From assembly GCF_018336935.1 (NCBI RefSeq), contig NZ_CP068771.1:4402001-4466000 (forward strand): DNA of 64,000 nucleotides, written 5' to 3'. The notes beneath the pieces are model-generated. The model was given only the letters and a program-made list of their open reading frames with translations. It made no database searches and was not told the origin of the DNA. Shown one piece after another: positions 18,892 through 30,178 of this stretch. Numbering within the stretch: position 1 is the stretch's first letter; the number at the start of each line of letters is the position of its first letter. A program made the translations under genes and the position numbers. The DNA is from Serratia plymuthica (GTDB taxonomy: Bacteria > Pseudomonadota > Gammaproteobacteria > Enterobacterales > Enterobacteriaceae).

Positions 18892-20094
18892 ATGCAATCA
18901 TTTGACGTGGTCATCGCCGGCGGCGGTATGGTGGGGTTGGCGCTGGCCTGTGGCCTGCAAGGCAGCGGCCTGCGCGTTGCGGTGCTTGAACACCGGCAAC
19001 CGGAGATGGCACCGCCGCAGGAACAGCCGGCGCTGCGCGTATCCGCCATCAACGCCGCCAGTGAGCGCCTGCTGCAGCATATTGGCGTGTGGGACGAAAT
19101 CCTCGCCCTGCGTGCCAGCGCTTACAACGCGATGGAAGTGTGGGATCGCGACAGCTTCGGCAAAATCGCCTTTCGCGGCGATGAATGCGGCTTCAGTCAC
19201 CTCGGCCACATCATTGAGAATTCGGTGATCCAGCAGGCGCTGTGGAAGCGTGCGGAAAGCCTGAGCGATGTCACGCTGATCACCCCTGCGGCGCTAAAAC
19301 AGGTGGCCTGGGGCGAGAACGACGCCTTTATCACGCTTGAAGATGGCCGCATGCTGACCGCCCGGCTGGTGGTGGGTGCCGACGGCGCGCATTCCTGGCT
19401 GCGTCAGCACGCCGACATCCCGCTGACCTTCTGGGATTACCGCCATCATGCGCTGGTGGCCACCATCCGCACCGACGAGCCGCACCTGGCGACGGCGCGG
19501 CAGGTATTTTATGGCAATGGCATTCTGGCGTTTCTGCCGTTCAGCGATCCGCATCTGTGCTCGATCGTGTGGTCGGTAACGCCGGAAGAAGCGGAGCGCC
19601 TGAAGCAGCTGGAGCCGGAGCAGTTTAATCGCGAGCTGGCGATGACGTTCGATCTGCGCCTCGGCGCTTGCCGGCTTGAGAGTGAACGCCAGACCTTCCC
19701 GTTGACCGGGCGTTACGCGCGCAGCTTTGCCGCGCACCGGCTGGCGTTAGTGGGGGATGCGGCGCATACCGTGCATCCGTTGGCCGGCCAGGGGGTGAAC
19801 CTGGGCTTTATGGACGCCGCCGAGCTGATTGCCGAGCTGCGCCGCCTGCAACGCCAGGGCAAGGACATTGGCCAACACTTGTATCTGCGCCGTTATGAGC
19901 GCCGTCGCAAACACGGCGCGGCCGTGATGCTGGCGAGTATGCAAGGGTTCCGTGAGCTGTTCGACGGTAATCATCCGGCGAAGAAACTGCTGCGTGATGT
20001 CGGTCTGCGTCTGGCCGACAGCTTGCCGGGCGTGAAGCCAAAACTGGTACGCCAGGCAATGGGCCTGAACGATTTGCCGGAGTGGCTGGCTTAA
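18892..20094 (+). CDS. ubiI: FAD-dependent 2-octaprenylphenol hydroxylase UbiI (VisC)
   Basis: 400 residues from the ATG at 18892 (MQSFDVVIAGGGMVGLALACGL), equal to E. coli UbiI. DG motif VVGADGAHSWLRQ and GDAAHTVHPLAGQGVNLGFMD are in place. It hydroxylates carbon 5 of the ubiquinone ring. Paralogous to ubiH immediately upstream. In E. coli the next gene is gcvT; here a four-gene minus-strand operon intervenes. Confidence 0.95.
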   Translation: MQSFDVVIAGGGMVGLALACGLQGSGLRVAVLEHRQPEMAPPQEQPALRVSAINAASERLLQHIGVWDEILALRASAYNAMEVWDRDSFGKIAFRGDECGFSHLGHIIENSVIQQALWKRAESLSDVTLITPAALKQVAWGENDAFITLEDGRMLTARLVVGADGAHSWLRQHADIPLTFWDYRHHALVATIRTDEPHLATARQVFYGNGILAFLPFSDPHLCSIVWSVTPEEAERLKQLEPEQFNRELAMTFDLRLGACRLESERQTFPLTGRYARSFAAHRLALVGDAAHTVHPLAGQGVNLGFMDAAELIAELRRLQRQGKDIGQHLYLRRYERRRKHGAAVMLASMQGFRELFDGNHPAKKLLRDVGLRLADSLPGVKPKLVRQAMGLNDLPEWLA

Positions 20095-20172
20095 GGCTGG
20101 AAACCCAGGATGAAGCCTCGCCCGGACTTGTCGCAGGGGCGCTGCATGCCCGGCGCCCACCATGAAACAAAA

Positions 20173-20192
20173 AAGGCTCCTTGCGGAGCCTT
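20173..20192. terminator. Terminator shared by ubiI and the inserted operon
   Basis: AAGGCTCC, loop TTGC, GGAGCCTT with an A-run on the left. It lies between the convergent ubiI and the last gene of the inserted operon. Confidence 0.75.
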
Positions 20193-20218
20193 ATCAGCAT
20201 GGAATGAACCCAGGGGCG

Positions 20219-21433
20219 CTACTCTGCGGCGATCGGTCGCCGTTGCAGGGCCTGCGTCATGCCGTAAAGCGCATAGCACAACAGCTCCAGTATAATCAGC
20301 GCGGAAAAAATCGACAGCGACAGCATGACGCCATAATTGGGGATTTCGACGGCGTAAAATACGGCTAAAGGGGCCAGCATCGCCACCAGAATGCTGGCAT
20401 TGATGATCCTCAGCCGATTGTCGTTCATCAGGTTGGCGCGAATATAACCCCGTAAAATCCACAACATCGACACGCCGACGATGGCGATGAAAAACTCCGC
20501 ATTCATGTAAATCGTTCTGCTCCCGGCCGGCAACAGGTCAAATCGATCAAGAATAAGGCACAACGCGACGAACAATATGGGGGCCGCCAGACACAGCAGC
20601 GCCAGGAAGCCGAACTGCTGTTTTTTCTGCGGCTGATGCCCCAATATTTTTAAGAGGATGCTCTCGATATCCAACACCGCGCCGATGGAAATGCAGATCA
20701 GGCCAAAGGTTAACGGCCAGTATTGCAGCACTTCACTGCCGCCGATAACCCGGCTCAGACAGATGACGACAATGATGTTGCTCATGAGCGATGAGGCGGT
20801 CATCAGAAAGGCCGAGAAGTAGGGCGCGATGATTTGCCGATAGTCCCTGCCGCCCCCGTCGTGTAGCCGAATGCCCTGACGCAGGACCAACAGCAACAGC
20901 AAAATGGCCTCCGTATAGGCACCTGCCACAAGCGCCAGGATCGCCGCCATATCCACAGGTACTTGAAATCGGGTCAGCGCATAACAACCGAGCACCGAAA
21001 CCAGCACGCGTACGAATGAGGCGCGGCTCATCAGGGCGGTTTTCCCCTCCAGGATGCAGCATCCCTGCAGATAACGTCGGACGCCTACGGCCAGCAGAGA
21101 AAGAGAAAACACATGGGTAATAAAGGCGATATGCGGGCTGATATGTTGCCTGAAACCCCAAACGCCCAGATTGAATATCAAAAAGACCGCGGCGGCGAGC
21201 AGTGCGGAAAACATCAGCGTCTCCGCACTCTTTTTCATTTTGATGACCACCGCGCACAGAGGGAAAACAAACGCATTGGCAAACATGAACGTACTCAGGG
21301 CAATGGCGTAATCGCCGGATGCCTTGAGACTGTAGGCTGAAAGAATGAGCGAGATAATGGGGAGTTCCAGATTCAGCAGACTGATGCTGATCGCACTGGG
21401 AAACCATAACCGCAACATGCCGGCGGTATTCAT
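20219..21433 (-). CDS. MOP-superfamily (MATE/Wzx-like) exporter of the inserted operon
   Basis: 404 residues, almost entirely hydrophobic, with about 12 membrane segments. After the first helix pair comes RRYLQGCCILEGKT near residues 118-131, reminiscent of the short 'R..LQG....' loop motif of MATE and polysaccharide flippases. I cannot assign a closer family or substrate. Its ATG overlaps the ATP-grasp gene stop by 4 bp (ATGA). As the last gene of a dehydrogenase-aminomutase-ligase operon, its likely job is to export the finished metabolite, and so perhaps to give self-protection. Confidence 0.7.
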   Translation of the reverse strand: MNTAGMLRLWFPSAISISLLNLELPIISLILSAYSLKASGDYAIALSTFMFANAFVFPLCAVVIKMKKSAETLMFSALLAAAVFLIFNLGVWGFRQHISPHIAFITHVFSLSLLAVGVRRYLQGCCILEGKTALMSRASFVRVLVSVLGCYALTRFQVPVDMAAILALVAGAYTEAILLLLLVLRQGIRLHDGGGRDYRQIIAPYFSAFLMTASSLMSNIIVVICLSRVIGGSEVLQYWPLTFGLICISIGAVLDIESILLKILGHQPQKKQQFGFLALLCLAAPILFVALCLILDRFDLLPAGSRTIYMNAEFFIAIVGVSMLWILRGYIRANLMNDNRLRIINASILVAMLAPLAVFYAVEIPNYGVMLSLSIFSALIILELLCYALYGMTQALQRRPIAAE

Positions 21434-22692
21434 GTATTCTCCCCGATATCTGCCGCCACGGCATCGTGATAAGGCAGGTAGTCATTAACCAGCCATTGGA
21501 AGTCCGCCGTTAAAGACGCCAGCGAGTCATTCCACAGCAGGATCCCGCCAATGCGGTCGCGTACGCTCTGCGGTCTGGTCAGCAGAGTGCCTTGCGGCAC
21601 CTCCCATGTCGTTTTATATGCGCTGCCGACGCTGATGTTTTTTTCTATATCGGCACGCGCGCCTTCCCGATGCGGATACCACACCCAGGCGGCGTAACCG
21701 CCAGGCCGCTCGCTCGCCTGTTCCAGCAGACCCATTTGCGCCAGAAAGTGCTGTTCTTCGATATTGCGGCCAGAGCACAGGGCATGCATTTGCGGGATCC
21801 AGCCGCCGGGCGCGCGGGCGGCGATTTCCAGAAACACGATACGGTCATCTTTGGTCAGGAAGGCTTCCATATGGGTCGCGCCGTCGGGCACGTAACCCAA
21901 CGCATCGAATACGCGGGAGTTATACGCTTCCAGGCGTGAATACAGCGGATCTTCTTTGTCCAGCGGTAAGCTGCCCACTGGCTTGCCGTCAATAAACTCG
22001 GCGTTGGGGTAGCTGTATTGGCAGATATAAATATCGGCGATCTCTCCTTGATAAACCAGGCTGTCGATATGGAACAGCGTTCCTTCAATAAATTGGTCCA
22101 ACTCATAGTTTTCAACGTCTTTATTGGCTTCACACCAGTGCCGCAGCGCCGGGCGGTCATGAATTTTGGCGATTCGTTCACTGCCGGCAGAATCAATTTG
22201 TTTGGCGAATATCGGGTAAGACAAGGACTGTTCAACTTGTTGAAGATAACGTTCAGGAGAGTCCTGATAGGACTGCGGAGAAAAAGGCGTTACCCGAGGG
22301 ATCTCTATATTGCCGGCAGCCATGACAGCTTTCATGCGCAGCTTGTTGATAAAGGGTTCCGTCTGCGCGAACGTTGCGCCCTGAATACCGAATATTTCCC
22401 GCAGGCGTGCTGCGTGCCCCAGAAAATATTCGTCGTTGGTGATGATTCTCACCTCCGCCATATTGGTGATATTGCGGCGGGTAAACAGATCGCGACAGGC
22501 TTGTTCCAGCTCTTCTGTGGTGAAGGGATCGCAGATTTGAATATCGTCGAAACAGGGTTTTTGATCAGCAGGCAAATTGCCCCAGCCCTGTTTCCCCGTC
22601 AGCAGGCAAACGGCGTATTCTTCCTTGTCGATCAGCTTATTCCAGTCAGCCCGGAAGGTGACAATGTTCTGCAATATGATAAATGTTTTCAT
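21430..22692 (-). CDS. ATP-grasp carboxylate-amine ligase (L-amino acid ligase/BacD-like)
   Basis: 420 residues. ATP-grasp landmarks in order: KLRMK (118-121), lid lysine in YPIFAKQIDSAG (K164), hinge-type ELDQFIEGTLFHIDSLV (197-213), and the metal/phosphate block FLTKDDRIVFLEIAARAPGG (278-297) with E289 and R293. The layout matches amino-acid/dipeptide ligases, which activate a carboxylate as acyl phosphate and condense it with an amine. Follows the radical SAM gene by 24 bp and overlaps the exporter gene. Predicted to join the product of the upstream enzymes to a second building block; partners unknown. Confidence 0.82.
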   Translation of the reverse strand: MKTFIILQNIVTFRADWNKLIDKEEYAVCLLTGKQGWGNLPADQKPCFDDIQICDPFTTEELEQACRDLFTRRNITNMAEVRIITNDEYFLGHAARLREIFGIQGATFAQTEPFINKLRMKAVMAAGNIEIPRVTPFSPQSYQDSPERYLQQVEQSLSYPIFAKQIDSAGSERIAKIHDRPALRHWCEANKDVENYELDQFIEGTLFHIDSLVYQGEIADIYICQYSYPNAEFIDGKPVGSLPLDKEDPLYSRLEAYNSRVFDALGYVPDGATHMEAFLTKDDRIVFLEIAARAPGGWIPQMHALCSGRNIEEQHFLAQMGLLEQASERPGGYAAWVWYPHREGARADIEKNISVGSAYKTTWEVPQGTLLTRPQSVRDRIGGILLWNDSLASLTADFQWLVNDYLPYHDAVAADIGENT

Positions 22693-22716
22693 GAGATAGC
22701 CTCTCTCCCGGTTGTT

Positions 22717-23718
22717 TTAGTTGGTAATGGGCGACCAGTCGGCCGTTCTGACCGTTTTGCCATAAAAGTCCGTAACGGTAGCGGTATCCGTTTGCCAGTG
22801 ATCGCTCGGCACCACCACTTTGCCGGAAGCGCTGGGGATATCGATAACGTGCTGGGGGAAGGCGAGGCCGGACAGTTCATTGCGCAGTTGCGTCATGATT
22901 GCCATCTCATCTTCGAGGCGCATGACAAAACGCCGGGTAGAGGTGACTTCCTGACCGTGATAGATGTAATACGGGCGAACGCCCAACTCGAATAAACGCA
23001 AAAACAGGGTTTTCAGCGTGTCCTTGTCGTCATTGATTGTTTTCAGGAAGACGGTTTGCGTCAGCAACACATAGCCCATCTTTTTGAAAGCCCGGATCAT
23101 TTCGATGACTTCAGGTTGCAGCTCATCCGGATGATCGATATGCAGGCTCAAATATACCGTCGGTTTGGCCTGCGCCAGCTCTTCCATCAGTTCCATACGT
23201 ACCTTGCCGGGATTTTGCAGCGGATAGCGGGTATGGATCCTGACCACTTTTACATGGTCGATCGCTTTCAGTCGATTAAACAGATATTGCAGACCTTTGG
23301 GGTTGGTCAGCGGATCGCCACCGCTGGCGATGACCTCGTAGATGCTTTTATCGTTGGCGATATAGTCAACGATATCATCAATTTGAGACATTTTTAACCG
23401 GCCTTCCACATCCAGGCCAACCCCCACGCGATCCTGCCGTTCGCAATACCGACAGTTGGCGGCGCAGGTATAAGAGAGCAAGACCAGTAATTGGCCATCA
23501 TATTTTTTCACCGTACCAAAAACGGGGGTGGATGTTTTCTCGTTCAGCAGGTCAACGTCAAGATTGGCCGGCAATGTTTCATATTCAGGATTGAACTCAT
23601 ACATCTCCTTTATTGCCTGGCTGGTTTTGCTGAGTTCTTTTAAATACGGCGTCAGCTTTTCTGAAAAACGCGTTTCTTCTTCAACCTGTTTAACGACAAT
23701 ATTTTGCTCGGCAGACAT
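22717..23718 (-). CDS. KamA-type radical SAM / PLP aminomutase homologue
   Basis: 333 residues. The radical SAM motif CxxxCxxC is C85-AAN-C89-RY-C92, followed by R94, which aligns with the substrate-carboxylate arginine of lysine 2,3-aminomutase. SGGDPL is at 132-137 and VRIHTRYPL at 159-167. The PLP lysine aligns with K300 in DIPSASGK. Of the two aspartates that bind the substrate's distal amine in lysine 2,3-aminomutase, one aligns with D293; the other falls on Q256 in YIYHGQEV. The protein therefore looks like a true 2,3-aminomutase with altered substrate choice. It lacks the C-terminal extension of clostridial enzymes and is not the EpmB type by sequence. Confidence 0.85.
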   Translation of the reverse strand: MSAEQNIVVKQVEEETRFSEKLTPYLKELSKTSQAIKEMYEFNPEYETLPANLDVDLLNEKTSTPVFGTVKKYDGQLLVLLSYTCAANCRYCERQDRVGVGLDVEGRLKMSQIDDIVDYIANDKSIYEVIASGGDPLTNPKGLQYLFNRLKAIDHVKVVRIHTRYPLQNPGKVRMELMEELAQAKPTVYLSLHIDHPDELQPEVIEMIRAFKKMGYVLLTQTVFLKTINDDKDTLKTLFLRLFELGVRPYYIYHGQEVTSTRRFVMRLEDEMAIMTQLRNELSGLAFPQHVIDIPSASGKVVVPSDHWQTDTATVTDFYGKTVRTADWSPITN

Positions 23719-23742
23719 TGTTATTCTCCATGCTCTTATTGA

Positions 23743-24750
23743 TCACGAGGGTTGTGAAATACCGTTTCCGTTCACGCAGTTGCGTACATTAGCCCCGGCC
23801 ATGATGCCCAAAAGCAACTCGGCCGATTTGGTTCTCATTTCCAGGAATGACTCTTCAGTGTAAAAAGCTGAGTGTGCGGTAAGAATAACGTTATCCAGAG
23901 TTCTGAAACCTGCGGGGATATTGGGTTCATTCTCCAGGACGTCCAGCCCGGCCGCCGCCACCTTGCCGGTATTGAGCGCTGCCAACAAAGCCTGTGAATC
24001 CACAATGCCCCCGCGTGCCGTATTGACCAGCAATACGCCTTCTTTCATTTGCTGAAACTGCGGTTCGGAAAGGAGATGGTGGGAAGTGCGGTTTAGGGAA
24101 GCGTTGACAGACACGATATCCGACGAAGCGAGCAGTTCCTCAAGGGATTCGCAGCGCGTGACGCCATGCGTTTTATCAATCCCACTGGCGACATAGGGGT
24201 CGTAAAAGCGGATTTTCAGACCAAAGGCCGCCGCTCTTTTTGCCACGGCGCCGCCGATGCGGCCAAAACCGATGATCCCCAGCGTTTTATCACGCAAGCG
24301 GTACAACTTTTTGACGCTGGCCCAGTCCCAACCACCTTGTCTGACATGCAAATTGATGTCGTTGAGTTTGCGGGCTACGCCGAGCATCAGCGCCAAAGTG
24401 TGATCGGCCACTTCTTCCGTGCCGTAGTCGGGAATATTGTACACGGCGATGTCGAGCTGCCTGGCGGCGTCAATATCCACATTATCGTAACCGACGGCGG
24501 CTTTAACGATAGTGCGGCAGCGGCTTAAATTGCGTAAAAAAGTCTGATTGAACTGGATGGACGGGATGCATGCCCAGATGATCATAAACTCTATCTCGGG
24601 CAGGATTTCGGCGGGGATTTCATTGATATTGCTGATATGTGCCAAGTGAACATCATGCCCGGCCAGTATTTCTCGTTCAATATCTGGTTGGGGAAAATGT
24701 TTTTCCGTTGTCGAATCAATGATTAAAACCTTGGTACGTTTGGGTTCCAT
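23743..24750 (-). CDS. NAD-dependent D-isomer-specific 2-hydroxyacid dehydrogenase
   Basis: 335 residues. Nucleotide fold GIIGFGRIGGAVAKRA with GxGxxG at 161-166 and D184 after the second strand (NAD preference). The catalytic triad is visible: R246 in NTARGGIVD, E275 in VLENEP, H293 in LTAHSAF. It resembles the C-terminal-binding-protein/phosphoglycerate dehydrogenase branch but has no ACT domain. As first gene of the operon, 24 bp before the aminomutase gene, it likely supplies or consumes an alpha-keto/alpha-hydroxy acid for the pathway. GAGGTGG precedes the ATG at a good distance. Confidence 0.85.
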   Translation of the reverse strand: MEPKRTKVLIIDSTTEKHFPQPDIEREILAGHDVHLAHISNINEIPAEILPEIEFMIIWACIPSIQFNQTFLRNLSRCRTIVKAAVGYDNVDIDAARQLDIAVYNIPDYGTEEVADHTLALMLGVARKLNDINLHVRQGGWDWASVKKLYRLRDKTLGIIGFGRIGGAVAKRAAAFGLKIRFYDPYVASGIDKTHGVTRCESLEELLASSDIVSVNASLNRTSHHLLSEPQFQQMKEGVLLVNTARGGIVDSQALLAALNTGKVAAAGLDVLENEPNIPAGFRTLDNVILTAHSAFYTEESFLEMRTKSAELLLGIMAGANVRNCVNGNGISQPS

Positions 24751-25624
24751 CTAACGCCCACCTCATAATTGTTAAGATAACATTAACATTACAAACTGAG
24801 CGTTAATTGAAGCATGGTTCCTTTTTTCTAACAAGTTGATGACTTTCAGATTAAAAAATCGATTATCATTAATTTATTGGTTTATAAACCCAATGGTTAT
24901 GGTTTTGTTAATCTAAAAATCAGGAAATGGGTAAGAGATGGAAATATTAATCTTCTGAAAAAATATGATAAACGTGAAAAATATTTACCCTTTACCTAAA
25001 CCAGTAAACGAAACTTTTGCTCTCAGTGGGAGAACGAACGCTCCCCATCAGCCCGATGTGAAGCCACTGCGGTTTTTTGAGGGGCTGGGGCGGTGCGCAT
25101 TTTATCGTCATCAGGAAACTCACGTGGCCTAAGTGAACGACAAGTTTCGGGCTGCTCAAACCTGAGATCGCCCATAGCTTTTCCTTATATTACCCTTCAT
25201 TTGAAATAATCTAATTTCAGTCGGTTTTTCGCATTATTTTTTCTAATTCAATGGTCGATTATCAAAAATCGAAATTCCGCGTCAGGCCGTTGGTTTGTTA
25301 TATAAGTTCGGATTTTTGGTGCTTCAATTGTTGGTTTTGTGCCTTAAAGCGCATTTTTCCAGTTAAAAACTCTGCACACTAGCCCGGCTTTTCACTGGCG
25401 ACGGACACCGCCAAACCTATTTTAACTTATGGTTAATGGGGGCGTTCGGTGATAACGTCAGAACAAAGGTATCGTTTGCGTCACGACGGTCAGCCGCAGT
25501 TTCCGTACGTTTCGGCGCAGCGTTTCTGTTGGGCAGTCAGTGCGCCACGCAACCCGGCCCGCGAGCCATACCGTATTGCGTGGCAGCACCCTAACTTCAG
25601 CTATTGAGTGGAATGAGGGAAAAG
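24751..25624. promoter_or_regulatory. Divergent control region between the inserted operon and gcvT
   Basis: 874 bp without a gene. The left part (to about 25020) is very AT-rich and should hold the promoter of the inserted operon. At 25024-25069 there are nested inverted repeats (CAGTGG...CCACTG around GGGAG...CTCCC) followed by a T6 run, like a terminator or leader hairpin. The right part should be the gcvT control region: CTAAT, the core of GcvA sites in E. coli, occurs at 25211-25215 and 25243-25247, and CGTTTGCGT near 25473-25481 resembles a PurR half-site. These assignments are tentative. Confidence 0.4.
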
Positions 25625-26722
25625 ATGGCAAAGCAAACCCCACTGTACGACCAGCACGTGGCGTGCGGTGCGCGCATGGTAGATTTTCATGGCTGGATGA
25701 TGCCGCTGCATTACGGATCCCAGATCGATGAGCACCACGCCGTGCGTCAGGATGCCGGCATGTTCGACGTCTCCCATATGACCATTGTGGATCTGCACGG
25801 TGCCCGTACCCGCGAGTTCCTGCGTTATCTGCTGGCGAATGACGTCGCCAAACTCACTCAACCTGGCAAAGCGCTGTATACCGGCATGCTGAATGCGTCC
25901 GGTGGCGTGATCGACGATCTTATCGTTTATTTCCTTACTGAAGACTATTTCCGCCTGGTGGTGAACTCCGCCACGCGCGACAAAGACCTGGCCTGGATCG
26001 AAGAACACGCAGCACCTTATGGTATTGAACTGAAGGTACGTGACGATCTGGCGCTGATTGCGGTGCAGGGCCCACAGGCCAAAGAACGCGCCGCTACCCT
26101 GTTTACTCCGGAACAAAAAAGCGCGGTTGAAGGCATGAAGCCCTTCTTCGGCGTACAGGCCGGGGATCTGTTCATTGCCACCACCGGTTATACCGGCGAA
26201 GCGGGCTACGAAATCGCCCTGCCGAAAGAGCAGGCGGCGGATTTCTGGCAACAGCTGCTGGCTGCGGGCGTTAAACCGGCCGGTTTGGGCGCGCGCGACA
26301 CTCTGCGCCTGGAAGCGGGCATGAACCTGTATGGCCAGGAGATGGACGAAGGCGTTTCGCCGTTGGCGGCCAACATGGGCTGGACCATCGCCTGGCAGCC
26401 GGAAGATCGCCAGTTCATCGGCCGTGACGCGCTGGAACAGCAACGGGAACAGGGCACCGAACAACTGGTCGGCTTGATCATGACGGAAAAAGGCGTATTA
26501 CGTAATGAGCTGCCGGTGCGTTTCACCGACGCGGCAGGTCAGGCGCACGAAGGGGTGATCACCAGCGGCTCCTTCTCGCCGACCCTGGGCTTCAGCATTG
26601 CCCTGGCGCGCGTGCCCGCCGGTATCGGCGAGCAGGCTATCGTGCAAATCCGCAACCGCGAAATGCCGGTCAAGGTCACCAAGCCCGGCTTTGTCCGTGC
26701 CGGTAAGCCACTGACAAATTGA
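25625..26722 (+). CDS. gcvT: Glycine cleavage T-protein, aminomethyltransferase
   Basis: 365 residues from [21 protein letters not shown], one longer than E. coli GcvT. Family blocks include [15 protein letters not shown], the [13 protein letters not shown] folate-site region and the [27 protein letters not shown] segment. It takes the aminomethyl group from lipoyl-GcvH, releases ammonia and makes 5,10-methylene-THF. First gene of gcvTHP. Confidence 0.97.
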
Positions 26723-26819
26723 TTTTTTATTGGTTATTCCCAATGGATTTCGCACGCAGCCAACAACGCCGCGGTGTGAAAGACGCAGGGAAATTATTTC
26801 TTCGAAGGAGTAGCTGGCT

Positions 26820-27206
26820 ATGAGCAATGTGCCAACAGAATTGAAATACGCATCCTCCCACGAGTGGGTTCGTTCAGAAGGTAACGGCGTTTACACCGTA
26901 GGCATCACCGAACACGCGCAGGAACTGCTGGGCGATATGGTGTTTGTCGATCTGCCGGAAGTGGGCCGCAACGTCGCCGCCGGTGAAGATTGCGCCGTGG
27001 CGGAATCCGTCAAGGCGGCGTCGGACATTTACGCGCCAATCAGCGGCGAAATCGTGGCGGTGAACGGCGAGCTGGAAAGCGCCCCGGAACTGGTGAACAG
27101 CGAGCCCTACGGTGACGGCTTCCTGTTCCAGATTAAAGCTTCAGACGAAGGCGAGCTGGCAAACCTGCTGGACGCTGCAGCTTATCAGGCCTCGATCGAC
27201 GAGTAA
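26820..27206 (+). CDS. gcvH: Glycine cleavage H-protein
   Basis: 128 residues. The lipoyl-accepting lysine is K65 in the [13 protein letters not shown] turn. It shuttles the aminomethyl group between GcvP and GcvT. AAGGAG precedes the ATG. The 97-bp gap to gcvT and the hairpin after it suggest adjusted expression within the operon. Confidence 0.97.
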
Positions 27207-27215
27207 TAGTGGCCA

Positions 27216-27244
27216 CGCCCCAGGCCTTTCGGCCGGGGCGTTTT
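27216..27244 (+). terminator. Intra-operon hairpin between gcvH and gcvP
   Basis: CGCCCC-A-GGCC-TTTC-GGCC-GGGGCG followed by TTTTAG, 10 bp after the gcvH stop. It has the form of an intrinsic terminator inside the operon, so it may set a lower gcvP level or stabilise the gcvTH transcript. Confidence 0.65.
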
Positions 27245-27298
27245 AGTTACCGCTCAAGCTATATCCCGTATCACGCAAGCATTCAGGAATTTGTAGCA

Positions 27299-30178
27299 AT
27301 GACTCAGACACTCAGCCAACTTGAACACAGCGAAGCGTTCATCGAACGTCACATCGGCTCTTCTGCGCAACAACAGCAGGAGTTGCTGGCAGCGGTGGGC
27401 GCACGCTCACTCAACGCGCTGATCCAACAGATCGTACCGGCGGACATTCAGCTGCCGGGGCCGCCGCCGGTGGGCGATGCGGCGACTGAACATCAGGCGC
27501 TGGCTGAGTTGAAAGCGATCGCCTCGCAGAATCAACGTTACAAATCCTATATCGGCATGGGCTACAGCGCGGTGCTGACGCCGCCGGTTATCCTGCGCAA
27601 TATGCTGGAAAACCCGGGTTGGTACACCGCCTATACCCCTTATCAGCCGGAAGTGTCGCAGGGTCGCCTGGAGGCGTTGCTGAACTTCCAGACCGTCACG
27701 CTCGACCTGACCGGCCTGGATTTGGCCTCCGCCTCGTTGCTCGACGAAGCCACCGCCGCCGCCGAAGCCATGGCGTTGGCCAAACGCGCCAGCAAGCTGA
27801 AAGACGCCAACCGCTTCTTCGTCGCCGACGATGTGCACCCGCAAACGTTGGACGTGGTGCGTACTCGTGCCGAAACCTTCGGTTTTGAAGTGATCGTGGA
27901 TAAAGCCGAGAAGGTGCTGGAGCTGCAGGGCGTGTTCGGCGTGCTGCTGCAACAGGTGGGCACTACCGGTGAGCTGCACGACTACGGCGCGTTGCTGGCT
28001 GAGCTGAAAACCCGCAAAATCGTCACCAGCGTGGCGGCCGACATCATGGCGCTGGTGCTGTTGACCGCACCGGGCAAACAGGGCGCGGACGTGGTCTTCG
28101 GTTCCGCGCAGCGCTTTGGCGTGCCTATGGGTTACGGCGGCCCGCATGCCGCCTTCTTCGCCTGCCGCGACGAATTCAAACGCTCGATGCCGGGCCGCAT
28201 TATCGGCGTTTCCCGCGACGCCGCCGGCAACACCGCGTTGCGTATGGCGATGCAAACCCGTGAGCAACATATCCGCCGCGAAAAGGCCAACTCGAATATT
28301 TGTACCTCGCAGGTGCTGCTGGCCAACATCGCCAGCCTGTACGCGGTGTACCACGGCCCGCAGGGCCTGCAGCGCATTGCCGGGCGTATCCATCGCCTGA
28401 CCGACATTCTGGCCGCCGGGTTGCAACAGGCCGGTCTGGCGCTGCGTCATAAAACCTGGTTCGATACCCTGACTGTGGAAGTCAAAGACAAGGCCGCCGT
28501 GCTGGAACGCGCGCTGAGCTTTGGCATCAACCTGCGTACCGACATCCACGGCGCGGTTGGCATCACGCTGGACGAAGCCACCTCGCGTGAAGACGTGCAG
28601 ACGCTGTTCGCCCTGTTGGCGGGTGACGATCACGGGCTGGACATCGATACGCTGGACGCGGCGGTGAGCAAAAACGGCCAGTCGATCCCGGCGGCAATGC
28701 TGCGCAAGGATCCGATCCTCTCCCATCCGGTATTCAACCGCTACCACAGCGAAACCGAGATGATGCGTTACATGCACCGTCTGGAGCGCAAAGATCTGGC
28801 GCTCAACCAGGCGATGATCCCGCTCGGTTCCTGCACCATGAAGCTGAATGCTGCGGCGGAAATGATCCCGATCACCTGGCCTGAATTCTCCGAGCTGCAC
28901 CCATTCTGCCCGCCAGAGCAGGCGGCAGGCTATCAGCAGATGATTGGCCAGCTGTCGCAGTGGCTGGTGCAACTGACCGGTTACGACGCGGTTTGCATGC
29001 AGCCGAACTCTGGCGCCCAGGGCGAGTATGCCGGCCTGCTGGCGATCCGCCGTTACCACGAAAGCCGTAACGAAGCGGGCCGCCATATCTGCCTGATCCC
29101 AAGTTCCGCGCACGGCACCAACCCGGCTTCCGCCCAGATGGCGGGCATGAGCGTAGTGGTGGTGGCCTGCGACAAGAACGGCAACATCGATCTGCACGAT
29201 CTGCGCATCAAGGCGGAACAGGCGGGCGAAGAGCTGTCCTGCATCATGGTGACCTACCCGTCGACCCACGGCGTGTACGAAGAAACCATCCGTGAAGTGT
29301 GCCAGATCGTTCATCAGTTCGGCGGCCAGGTGTACCTTGACGGCGCCAACATGAATGCTCAGGTCGGCATCACCACGCCGGGTTACATCGGCGCGGACGT
29401 CTCGCACCTCAATCTGCACAAAACCTTCTGCATCCCGCACGGCGGCGGCGGCCCGGGCATGGGCCCGATCGGCGTCAAAGCGCATCTGGCTCCGTTCGTG
29501 CCGGGCCACAGCGTGGTACAGATCGACGGCGTAACCACTCAGCAAGGCGCGGTGTCCGCCGCGCCGTTCGGCAGCGCTTCTATTTTGCCAATCAGCTGGA
29601 TGTACATCCGCATGATGGGCGCGGAAGGGTTAAAACTGGCGAGCCAGGTGGCGATCCTCAACGCCAACTACATCGCAACCCGCCTGAAAGATGCCTATCC
29701 GGTGCTGTATACCGGCCGCGACCATCGCGTGGCGCATGAATGTATTCTCGACATTCGTCCGCTGAAAGAAGAGACCGGCATCAGCGAAATGGACATCGCC
29801 AAGCGCCTGATTGACTACGGCTTCCATGCGCCGACCATGTCCTTCCCGGTCGCGGGCACGCTGATGGTCGAGCCGACCGAATCGGAAAGCAAGGTGGAGC
29901 TGGATCGCTTTATCGACGCGATGCTGGCTATCCGCAGCGAGATTGACCGGGTGGCGAAAGGCGAATGGCCGCTGGAAGACAACCCGTTGGTGAACGCGCC
30001 GCACATTCAGGCGGAGCTGGTCGGCGATTGGCAGCATGCCTACAGCCGCGAACTGGCGGTGTTCCCTATCGCCGGTGTGCGTGAGAACAAATACTGGCCG
30101 AGCGTGAAGCGTCTGGATGACGTCTATGGCGACCGCAATCTGTTCTGCTCCTGCGTGCCAATGAGCGAATACGAATAA
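27299..30178 (+). CDS. gcvP: Glycine dehydrogenase (decarboxylating), P-protein
   Basis: 959 residues from the ATG at 27299 ([20 protein letters not shown]); a 30-codon GTG extension overlaps the hairpin and is rejected. The PLP lysine is K708 in [23 protein letters not shown]. Two homologous halves as usual. It decarboxylates glycine and passes the aminomethyl group to GcvH. Last gene of gcvTHP, with a strong terminator 24 bp beyond. Confidence 0.97.

Follow-up and report, generated by a model that had tools for sequence, protein, structure and literature searches.

A four-gene operon between ubiI and gcvT in Serratia plymuthica, possibly for a small exported peptide-like metabolite

What do four genes make that stand between ubiI and gcvT in Serratia plymuthica? 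The locus lies in a stretch of 64,000 nucleotides (hereafter the window) from a genome consisting of a single contig of 5.46 Mb. Four open reading frames run on the minus strand from 24750 to 20219 and encode a 2-hydroxyacid dehydrogenase (DH), a KamA-type enzyme (KAM) of the radical S-adenosylmethionine (SAM) and pyridoxal phosphate (PLP) kind, an ATP-grasp ligase (GRASP) and a membrane protein. Their coordinates give gaps of 24, 24 and -4 bases, as stated in an earlier note made from the letters of this DNA. All four genes are intact, and their anatomy supports one transcription unit. We consider it rather probable that they form an operon, complete in itself and spread by horizontal transfer, whose product is a small specialised metabolite sent out of the cell. 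This compound would be dipeptide- or depsipeptide-like and contain a beta-amino acid; the peptide-like nature, the beta-amino acid and the export are drawn from family knowledge only.

The unit recurs in other genomes. One genome per species, from 84,980 species, was scanned with two KamA peptide patterns, CERQDRVG and RPYY[IL]YH[CG]; this gave 131 stretches, of which 106 were confirmed as relatives and the best 80 were kept, representing 79 loci. The co-occurrence search proposed in the earlier note was fruitful, since all four genes were found in the same order at eight of these loci (L005-L012), hosted by S. plymuthica, S. inhibens, Rahnella bruchi, an uncultured Pantoea, Pantoea agglomerans HJS002, Hafnia psychrotolerans and Aeromonas simiae. 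The window included, the unit is thus present in nine operons. Two of the copies, L009 and L012, belong to Pantoea agglomerans HJS002, where they lie on one chromosome and have diverged from each other. No relatives of the operon's dehydrogenase or membrane protein were found at the other 71 loci within the DNA examined around them. The genes are spaced from -17 to +24 bases across the operons, with starts as chosen in the analysis. The window KamA shares 99.7% identity with its counterpart in S. plymuthica NBRC 102599, and across the eight loci identity to the window ranges from 94.0-99.7% at its highest down to 54% for DH, 66% for KAM, 44% for GRASP and 35% for the membrane protein. The ratio of nonsynonymous to synonymous substitution rates (dN/dS) was 0.009-0.163 where dS is low (the window with L005 and L006; L007 with L010). 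Among distant pairs, for which dS is high or saturated, the highest ratio was 0.366 (membrane protein with L011, dS 1.28). The cassette genes are under purifying selection.

The cassette has recently been transferred between genera, because its dS lies far below that of gcvT among the Rahnella, Hafnia and Pantoea copies (0.06-0.32 for operon genes against 0.84-1.45 for gcvT overall; 0.20-0.26 against 0.84 for Rahnella and Hafnia, 0.06-0.10 against 1.19 for Rahnella and Pantoea). It is also rare. The ligase was detected at E 1e-20 in two of 198 genomes of the family sample, the source genome counted and one of the two holding a 28% relative, and KamA in one of 369 genomes of the class sample, the source genome itself, and in two of 394 of the order sample, the source genome counted. 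The longest contigs are the same for both proteins in further clusters (571942, 30463, 8558 and 18952), which suggests that the KamA and ligase genes lie on shared contigs, either in four additional protein clusters or in the same Hafnia record. Megablast found no similar DNA in the E. coli collection. Plasmids gave no KamA match at E 1e-60, and ligase matches in 75 records, all below 60% identity (24-29% in the 20 listed). Viral contigs gave only two remote KamA relatives (30-36%), hence no sign of phage carriage. This distribution bears on another use of the genes, in which KamA and ligase would produce an intracellular compatible solute, either a beta-amino acid or a dipeptide containing it; this would protect against osmotic stress, with the membrane protein serving its uptake or efflux. 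Some beta-amino acids, N-acetyl-beta-lysine for instance, are known to act as osmolytes, and homologues of KamA and ligase occur in Marinobacter, a salt-tolerant genus. We nevertheless hold such a role to be very improbable: the cassette is sparse, transferred and mostly found in non-halophiles, the four-gene unit has no acetyltransferase, and we know of no osmolyte route with a ligase and a dehydrogenase.

Within Serratia the cassette is an insertion, as the earlier note had supposed for the lineage, and is present in few members of the genus. Among 30 genomes, the source genome counted, ubiI was detected in all, the ligase in three and the dehydrogenase in the same three; the remaining 27 have the site without the operon. 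In all 27, homology to the window extends up to the end of ubiI (20090-20094) and starts again from 25161-25236, upstream of gcvT. The spacer at the empty site comprises 45-94 bases in 23 of them; in L112-L115, the four genomes at the greatest distance, it has 137-210. No operon remnants were found in the empty-site spacers of six genomes inspected, no tRNA genes in L005-L012, and no convincing repeats at the ends of the insert. When the window is compared with the two further Serratia that carry the insert, the operon genes have dS of 0.13-0.27, resembling gcvT (0.13 and 0.18), so the insertion is probably older than the divergence of the three operon-bearing Serratia. The lower G+C content, suspected earlier by eye, was confirmed: 0.518 for DH, 0.495 for KAM, 0.532 for GRASP and 0.539 for the membrane protein against 0.584-0.640 for six flanking genes (pepP, ubiH, ubiI, gcvT, gcvH, gcvP).

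The features of the locus are collected in Table 1. A terminator behind the operon, also proposed earlier, is likely in the window, where a hairpin is followed by a T run. This hairpin has the longest stem among ten sites listed; the number of sites is itself no evidence, as shuffled sequences are already expected to give 7.2. A comparison did not show the terminator to be conserved: S. plymuthica L005 retains the hairpin without the adjacent T run and the same look-up in L006 gave nothing comparable. The region upstream of the operon is 79% identical to that of L006 over 423 bases and 81% to that of L005 over 292 bases, and the final approximately 60 bases before the DH start are nearly invariant across the three Serratia. 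Its similarity to the upstream stretches of L007-L012 was no better than chance. An Rfam scan of positions 19500-27500 gave no match at the gathering threshold.

Table 1. Positions of the operon genes and associated features in the window.
Feature	Position	Strand	Length and basis
DH, D-2-hydroxyacid dehydrogenase, operon gene 1	23743..24750	-	335 amino acids; PF02826
KAM, KamA-type radical SAM/PLP enzyme	22717..23718	-	333 amino acids; TIGR03822 below cut-off, 2a5h alignment
GRASP, ATP-grasp carboxylate-amine ligase, L-amino acid ligase type	21430..22692	-	420 amino acids; profile against 4wd3
Polytopic membrane protein, likely transporter	20219..21433	-	404 amino acids; hydropathy, position in operon
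Intrinsic terminator-like hairpin and T run, 3' of operon	20173..20192	-	8-pair stem
A+T-rich upstream region with conserved blocks, presumed promoter and leader	24751..25170	-	comparison of Serratia upstream stretches
Inserted segment between ubiI and gcvT upstream region	20095..25169		~5.08 kb; end of homology with 27 operon-free Serratia

The catalytic motifs of all three enzymes are present, and their families agree with those named in the earlier note. DH scored 187.5 bits against PF02826 (cut-off 25.1), and the solved structures nearest to it are those of C-terminal binding proteins (E 1.1e-57). It has the NAD-binding domain, with the Rossmann motif starting at residue 158, and Arg246, Glu275 and His293, the catalytic triad of D-2-hydroxyacid dehydrogenases, are present in nine of nine operons. 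GRASP as a single sequence scored 23.4 bits against the Pfam ATP-grasp model, just under the cut-off of 24, and matched 4wd3 with E 2.1e-9. Its profile placed it among ATP-grasp ligases and tied it to solved L-amino acid ligases (4wd3 E 4.9e-31, 3vot 3.1e-13, BacD 2.5e-10). Residues K117, K164, E276, E289 and R293 are invariant across 19 aligned sequences, the window included. The NCBIfam models gave no match to BacD or DdaF at 0.001, and none to D-Ala-D-Lac ligase.

KAM was best matched by TIGR03822 (228.9 bits, below its cut-off) and aligned with the solved lysine 2,3-aminomutase 2a5h at E 1.5e-38, which bears out the KamA assignment. The alignment identifies the CxxxCxxC motif at 85-92 (C85, C89, C92), R94 and K300, the last two being the carboxylate-binding arginine and the PLP lysine. 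Aspartates 293 and 330, numbered as in lysine 2,3-aminomutase, are not both kept, as KAM has Q256 and D293 at the respective columns. KAM did not reach the subfamily model TIGR00238 (183.2 bits, cut-off 199.2), nor those of lysine (166.4 against 525.4), arginine (168.1 against 600) and glutamate (189 against 650) 2,3-aminomutases and EpmB (184.2 against 369.3). A tree of 35 rows united the KamA proteins of the window and of L005-L019 in a single clade of 16 with support of 100/99, in which the nine operon copies grouped at 100/98 with four Actinomycetota adjacent; L005-L012 are all of its proteobacterial members in the scan. CERQDRVG follows the cluster cysteines at all 15 clade loci, partly by construction, the motif being one of the two search patterns. 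At the Asp293 column the 15 loci have Q (12), H (two) or T (one), and at the Asp330 column D (13) or E (two). The Streptomyces protein of L049, which scored 606.9 bits with the arginine 2,3-aminomutase model (cut-off 600), keeps the first aspartate and lacks the second, the reverse of KAM. We read the clade as a putative specificity separate from those of the lysine and arginine aminomutases. The substrate of KAM is probably a polar amino acid, bound otherwise than in the lysine and arginine enzymes. One other KamA protein, 34% identical, is encoded in the host genome outside the operon and is EpmB by our reading.

The surroundings of the clade loci differ. In Rahnella, Pantoea and Hafnia (L007-L010) a divergent gene precedes the cassette and seven genes, conserved in all four loci, follow it. 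In L010, the only locus read for families, the upstream gene encodes a LysR regulator and the seven encode a second KamA-like protein, a metallo-beta-lactamase-fold hydrolase, an FAD/NAD(P) protein, a cupin, an MFS transporter, a glutathione-transferase-like protein and a CMD-family protein. This module, at about 13600-20842 of L007-L010, occurs in three genera; its KamA-like protein is very divergent, with 446-454 amino acids by the called reading frames. Pantoea L012 has a fifth gene, related to hydroxylases of the VioC, GntD and clavaminate synthase kind (arginine, enduracididine and clavaminate-type; 165.2 of 345, 127.7 of 418.6 and 101.5 of 450 bits, all below cut-off; PDB E 1.7e-27). In Glycomyces (L013), Saccharothrix (L014) and Streptomyces sp. 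CNH099 (L018) an ATP-grasp gene of a kind other than GRASP, the D-Ala-D-Ala ligase type, is directly 3' of KamA, and AMP-ligase/carrier and condensation genes are also near in L013 and L018. We count these actinomycete neighbours and the fifth gene of L012 in favour of a specialised metabolite. The carrier and AMP-ligase protein beside this pair (L013 12815-14533, L018 12777-14534) looks by eye more like an acyl-ligase than an amino-acid-activating domain. In L017 (Bacteroidota) the ATP-grasp neighbour is of the glutathione synthetase type (23.5 bits, cut-off 23), and that of L019 is doubtful. Several remote KamA loci among L023-L055 (Desulfovibrio relatives, Planctomycetota, Omnitrophota and others) have one or two D-Ala-D-Ala-ligase-like frames nearby.

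A number of observations weigh against an operon for an exported beta-amino acid product, and the first concern the membrane protein. It is encoded in all nine operons and has overlapping hydrophobic segments over its entire length in a simple hydropathy scan; from position and topology it is likely a transporter. It has no Pfam or NCBIfam family and no PDB match. Shallow profiles compared by hhalign with 14 Wzx-type and 12 MATE proteins of relatives, MurJ having no profile of its own, gave nothing significant. The sets comprised 14 of 15 Wzx-type loci (L136, a short frame, was dropped) and 12 of 14 MATE loci (L150 and L151 excluded). Of the earlier interpretation the insertion, the single unit by anatomy and the four-gene recurrence stand; the assignment of gene 4 to the MOP exporters found no sequence support. 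The best of the four profile comparisons was with Wzx-type flippases (P 0.0098, probability 4%, not significant), and this would suit a cell-envelope modification, in which a VanH/VanA-like pair supplied a modified dipeptide or depsipeptide for attachment to a lipid-linked precursor, with the membrane protein as flippase. That the 2-hydroxyacid dehydrogenase adjoins a ligase distantly related to D-Ala-D-Ala ligases fits such a scheme too. Even so it seems improbable, given that DH reaches 146.5 bits with the vanH_gen model (cut-off 540), the ligase profile is nearest to L-amino acid ligases, glycosyltransferase and dipeptidase genes are absent from the four-gene unit, and KamA is left without a place.

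Further points on the same side against an exported metabolite with a beta-amino acid are that the Serratia four-gene unit contains no regulator or resistance gene, and that relatives of DH and of the membrane protein are missing from the examined DNA of seven of the 15 clade loci (L013-L019). At two Planctomycetes loci no ATP-grasp gene was found beside KamA, in L016 among five neighbours scanned and in L015 with our own ligase profiles only. An ATP-grasp gene within 600 bases of KamA, scored with two ligase profiles, was found at 11 of the 15 clade loci against 28 of the 64 other KamA loci. The count favours the clade, as the profiles were built partly from its own ligases, and it misses the ATP-grasp gene of L017 (found by Pfam) and the doubtful one of L019. 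Since so many other loci have it too, adjacency alone says little, and we rejected it as strong evidence for a special mark of the clade; KamA loci often show this pairing. Likewise, remote KamA proteins mostly keep D at the Asp293 column, but Q without the second acid occurs in L041, L054, L056 and L068, so only the pair of Q256 and acidic 293 is peculiar. Finally, KAM lies below the curated cut-off of all six KamA models that it matched, and for this reason it may catalyse another radical or PLP reaction (another shift, an elimination or C-C chemistry) leading to a small antimetabolite of a different class. Two features agree with this: one of the two aspartates that bind the substrate is replaced by Q, H or T, and the third cysteine is followed by CERQDRVG, a stretch whose presence depends in part on the search patterns. 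The iron-sulphur cysteines, the carboxylate-binding arginine and the PLP lysine are all retained, and we therefore judge a reaction other than 2,3-amino migration to be rather unlikely.

For the exported beta-amino acid product the following steps may be envisaged from the chemistry of the families. KamA would convert an ordinary L-amino acid to its beta-isomer, using SAM, an iron-sulphur cluster and PLP, and the dehydrogenase would turn a 2-oxo acid into a 2-hydroxy acid with NADH. The ligase would activate one carboxylate as acyl phosphate and then join the hydroxy acid and the beta-amino acid, by an amide or, less likely, an ester; alternatively, the beta-amino acid would be joined to another amino acid. 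The membrane protein would carry the product out. More speculatively, and with considerable doubt on our part, the operon could be the most compact complete route to a novel class of antimetabolites for export, namely hydroxyacyl-beta-amino acids or beta-depsipeptides. Its KamA subfamily would have a third, so far undescribed substrate specificity, and the four genes would have spread among enterobacteria as a cassette elaborated by a hydroxylase (Pantoea L012) or by a seven-gene second module with another KamA-like enzyme (Rahnella, Pantoea, Hafnia). The number of genes is small enough for joint expression, so the product can be searched for directly. If KamA makes a new beta-amino acid, this would be a new radical aminomutase specificity, and CERQDRVG with Q256/D293 would be a marker for related clusters in Actinomycetota and metagenomes.

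The Pantoea PNP-1 cluster was considered as the same system and rejected, as PMC4010436 mentions other genes in its ATP-grasp passages. No description of the set of dehydrogenase, KamA, ATP-grasp ligase and membrane protein was found in those portions of the open-access literature that were searched. Given a 2009 survey of the gene neighbourhoods of amidoligases, KamA has likely been mentioned beside ATP-grasp genes before. VanH and VanA of glycopeptide resistance are a 2-hydroxyacid dehydrogenase and an ATP-grasp ligase encoded in one operon, and our operon resembles them in this combination. It differs in the distance of DH from VanH, and KamA and the membrane protein have no counterpart there. 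KAM shares with lysine, arginine and glutamate 2,3-aminomutases and EpmB the CxxxCxxC motif, an SGGD stretch, the PLP lysine and the carboxylate arginine; unlike lysine aminomutase it has glutamine at the Asp293 column, with the Asp330 column still acidic. GRASP has a similar length to the L-amino acid ligases 4wd3, BL00235 and BacD and, by profile, the ATP-grasp family in common with them, but is remote from them in sequence. In Streptomyces L049 (10884-13433) and Embleya L072 (10884-13475) KamA is succeeded by a long frame, counted from stop to stop, that includes an ATP-grasp part; in L049 this part comprises residues 532-761 of the 850 so counted. These two loci are like our operon in that order of genes and unlike it in having another KamA subfamily and no relative of DH or the membrane protein. 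The operon is a variant among the small ligase-based specialised-metabolite operons already known.

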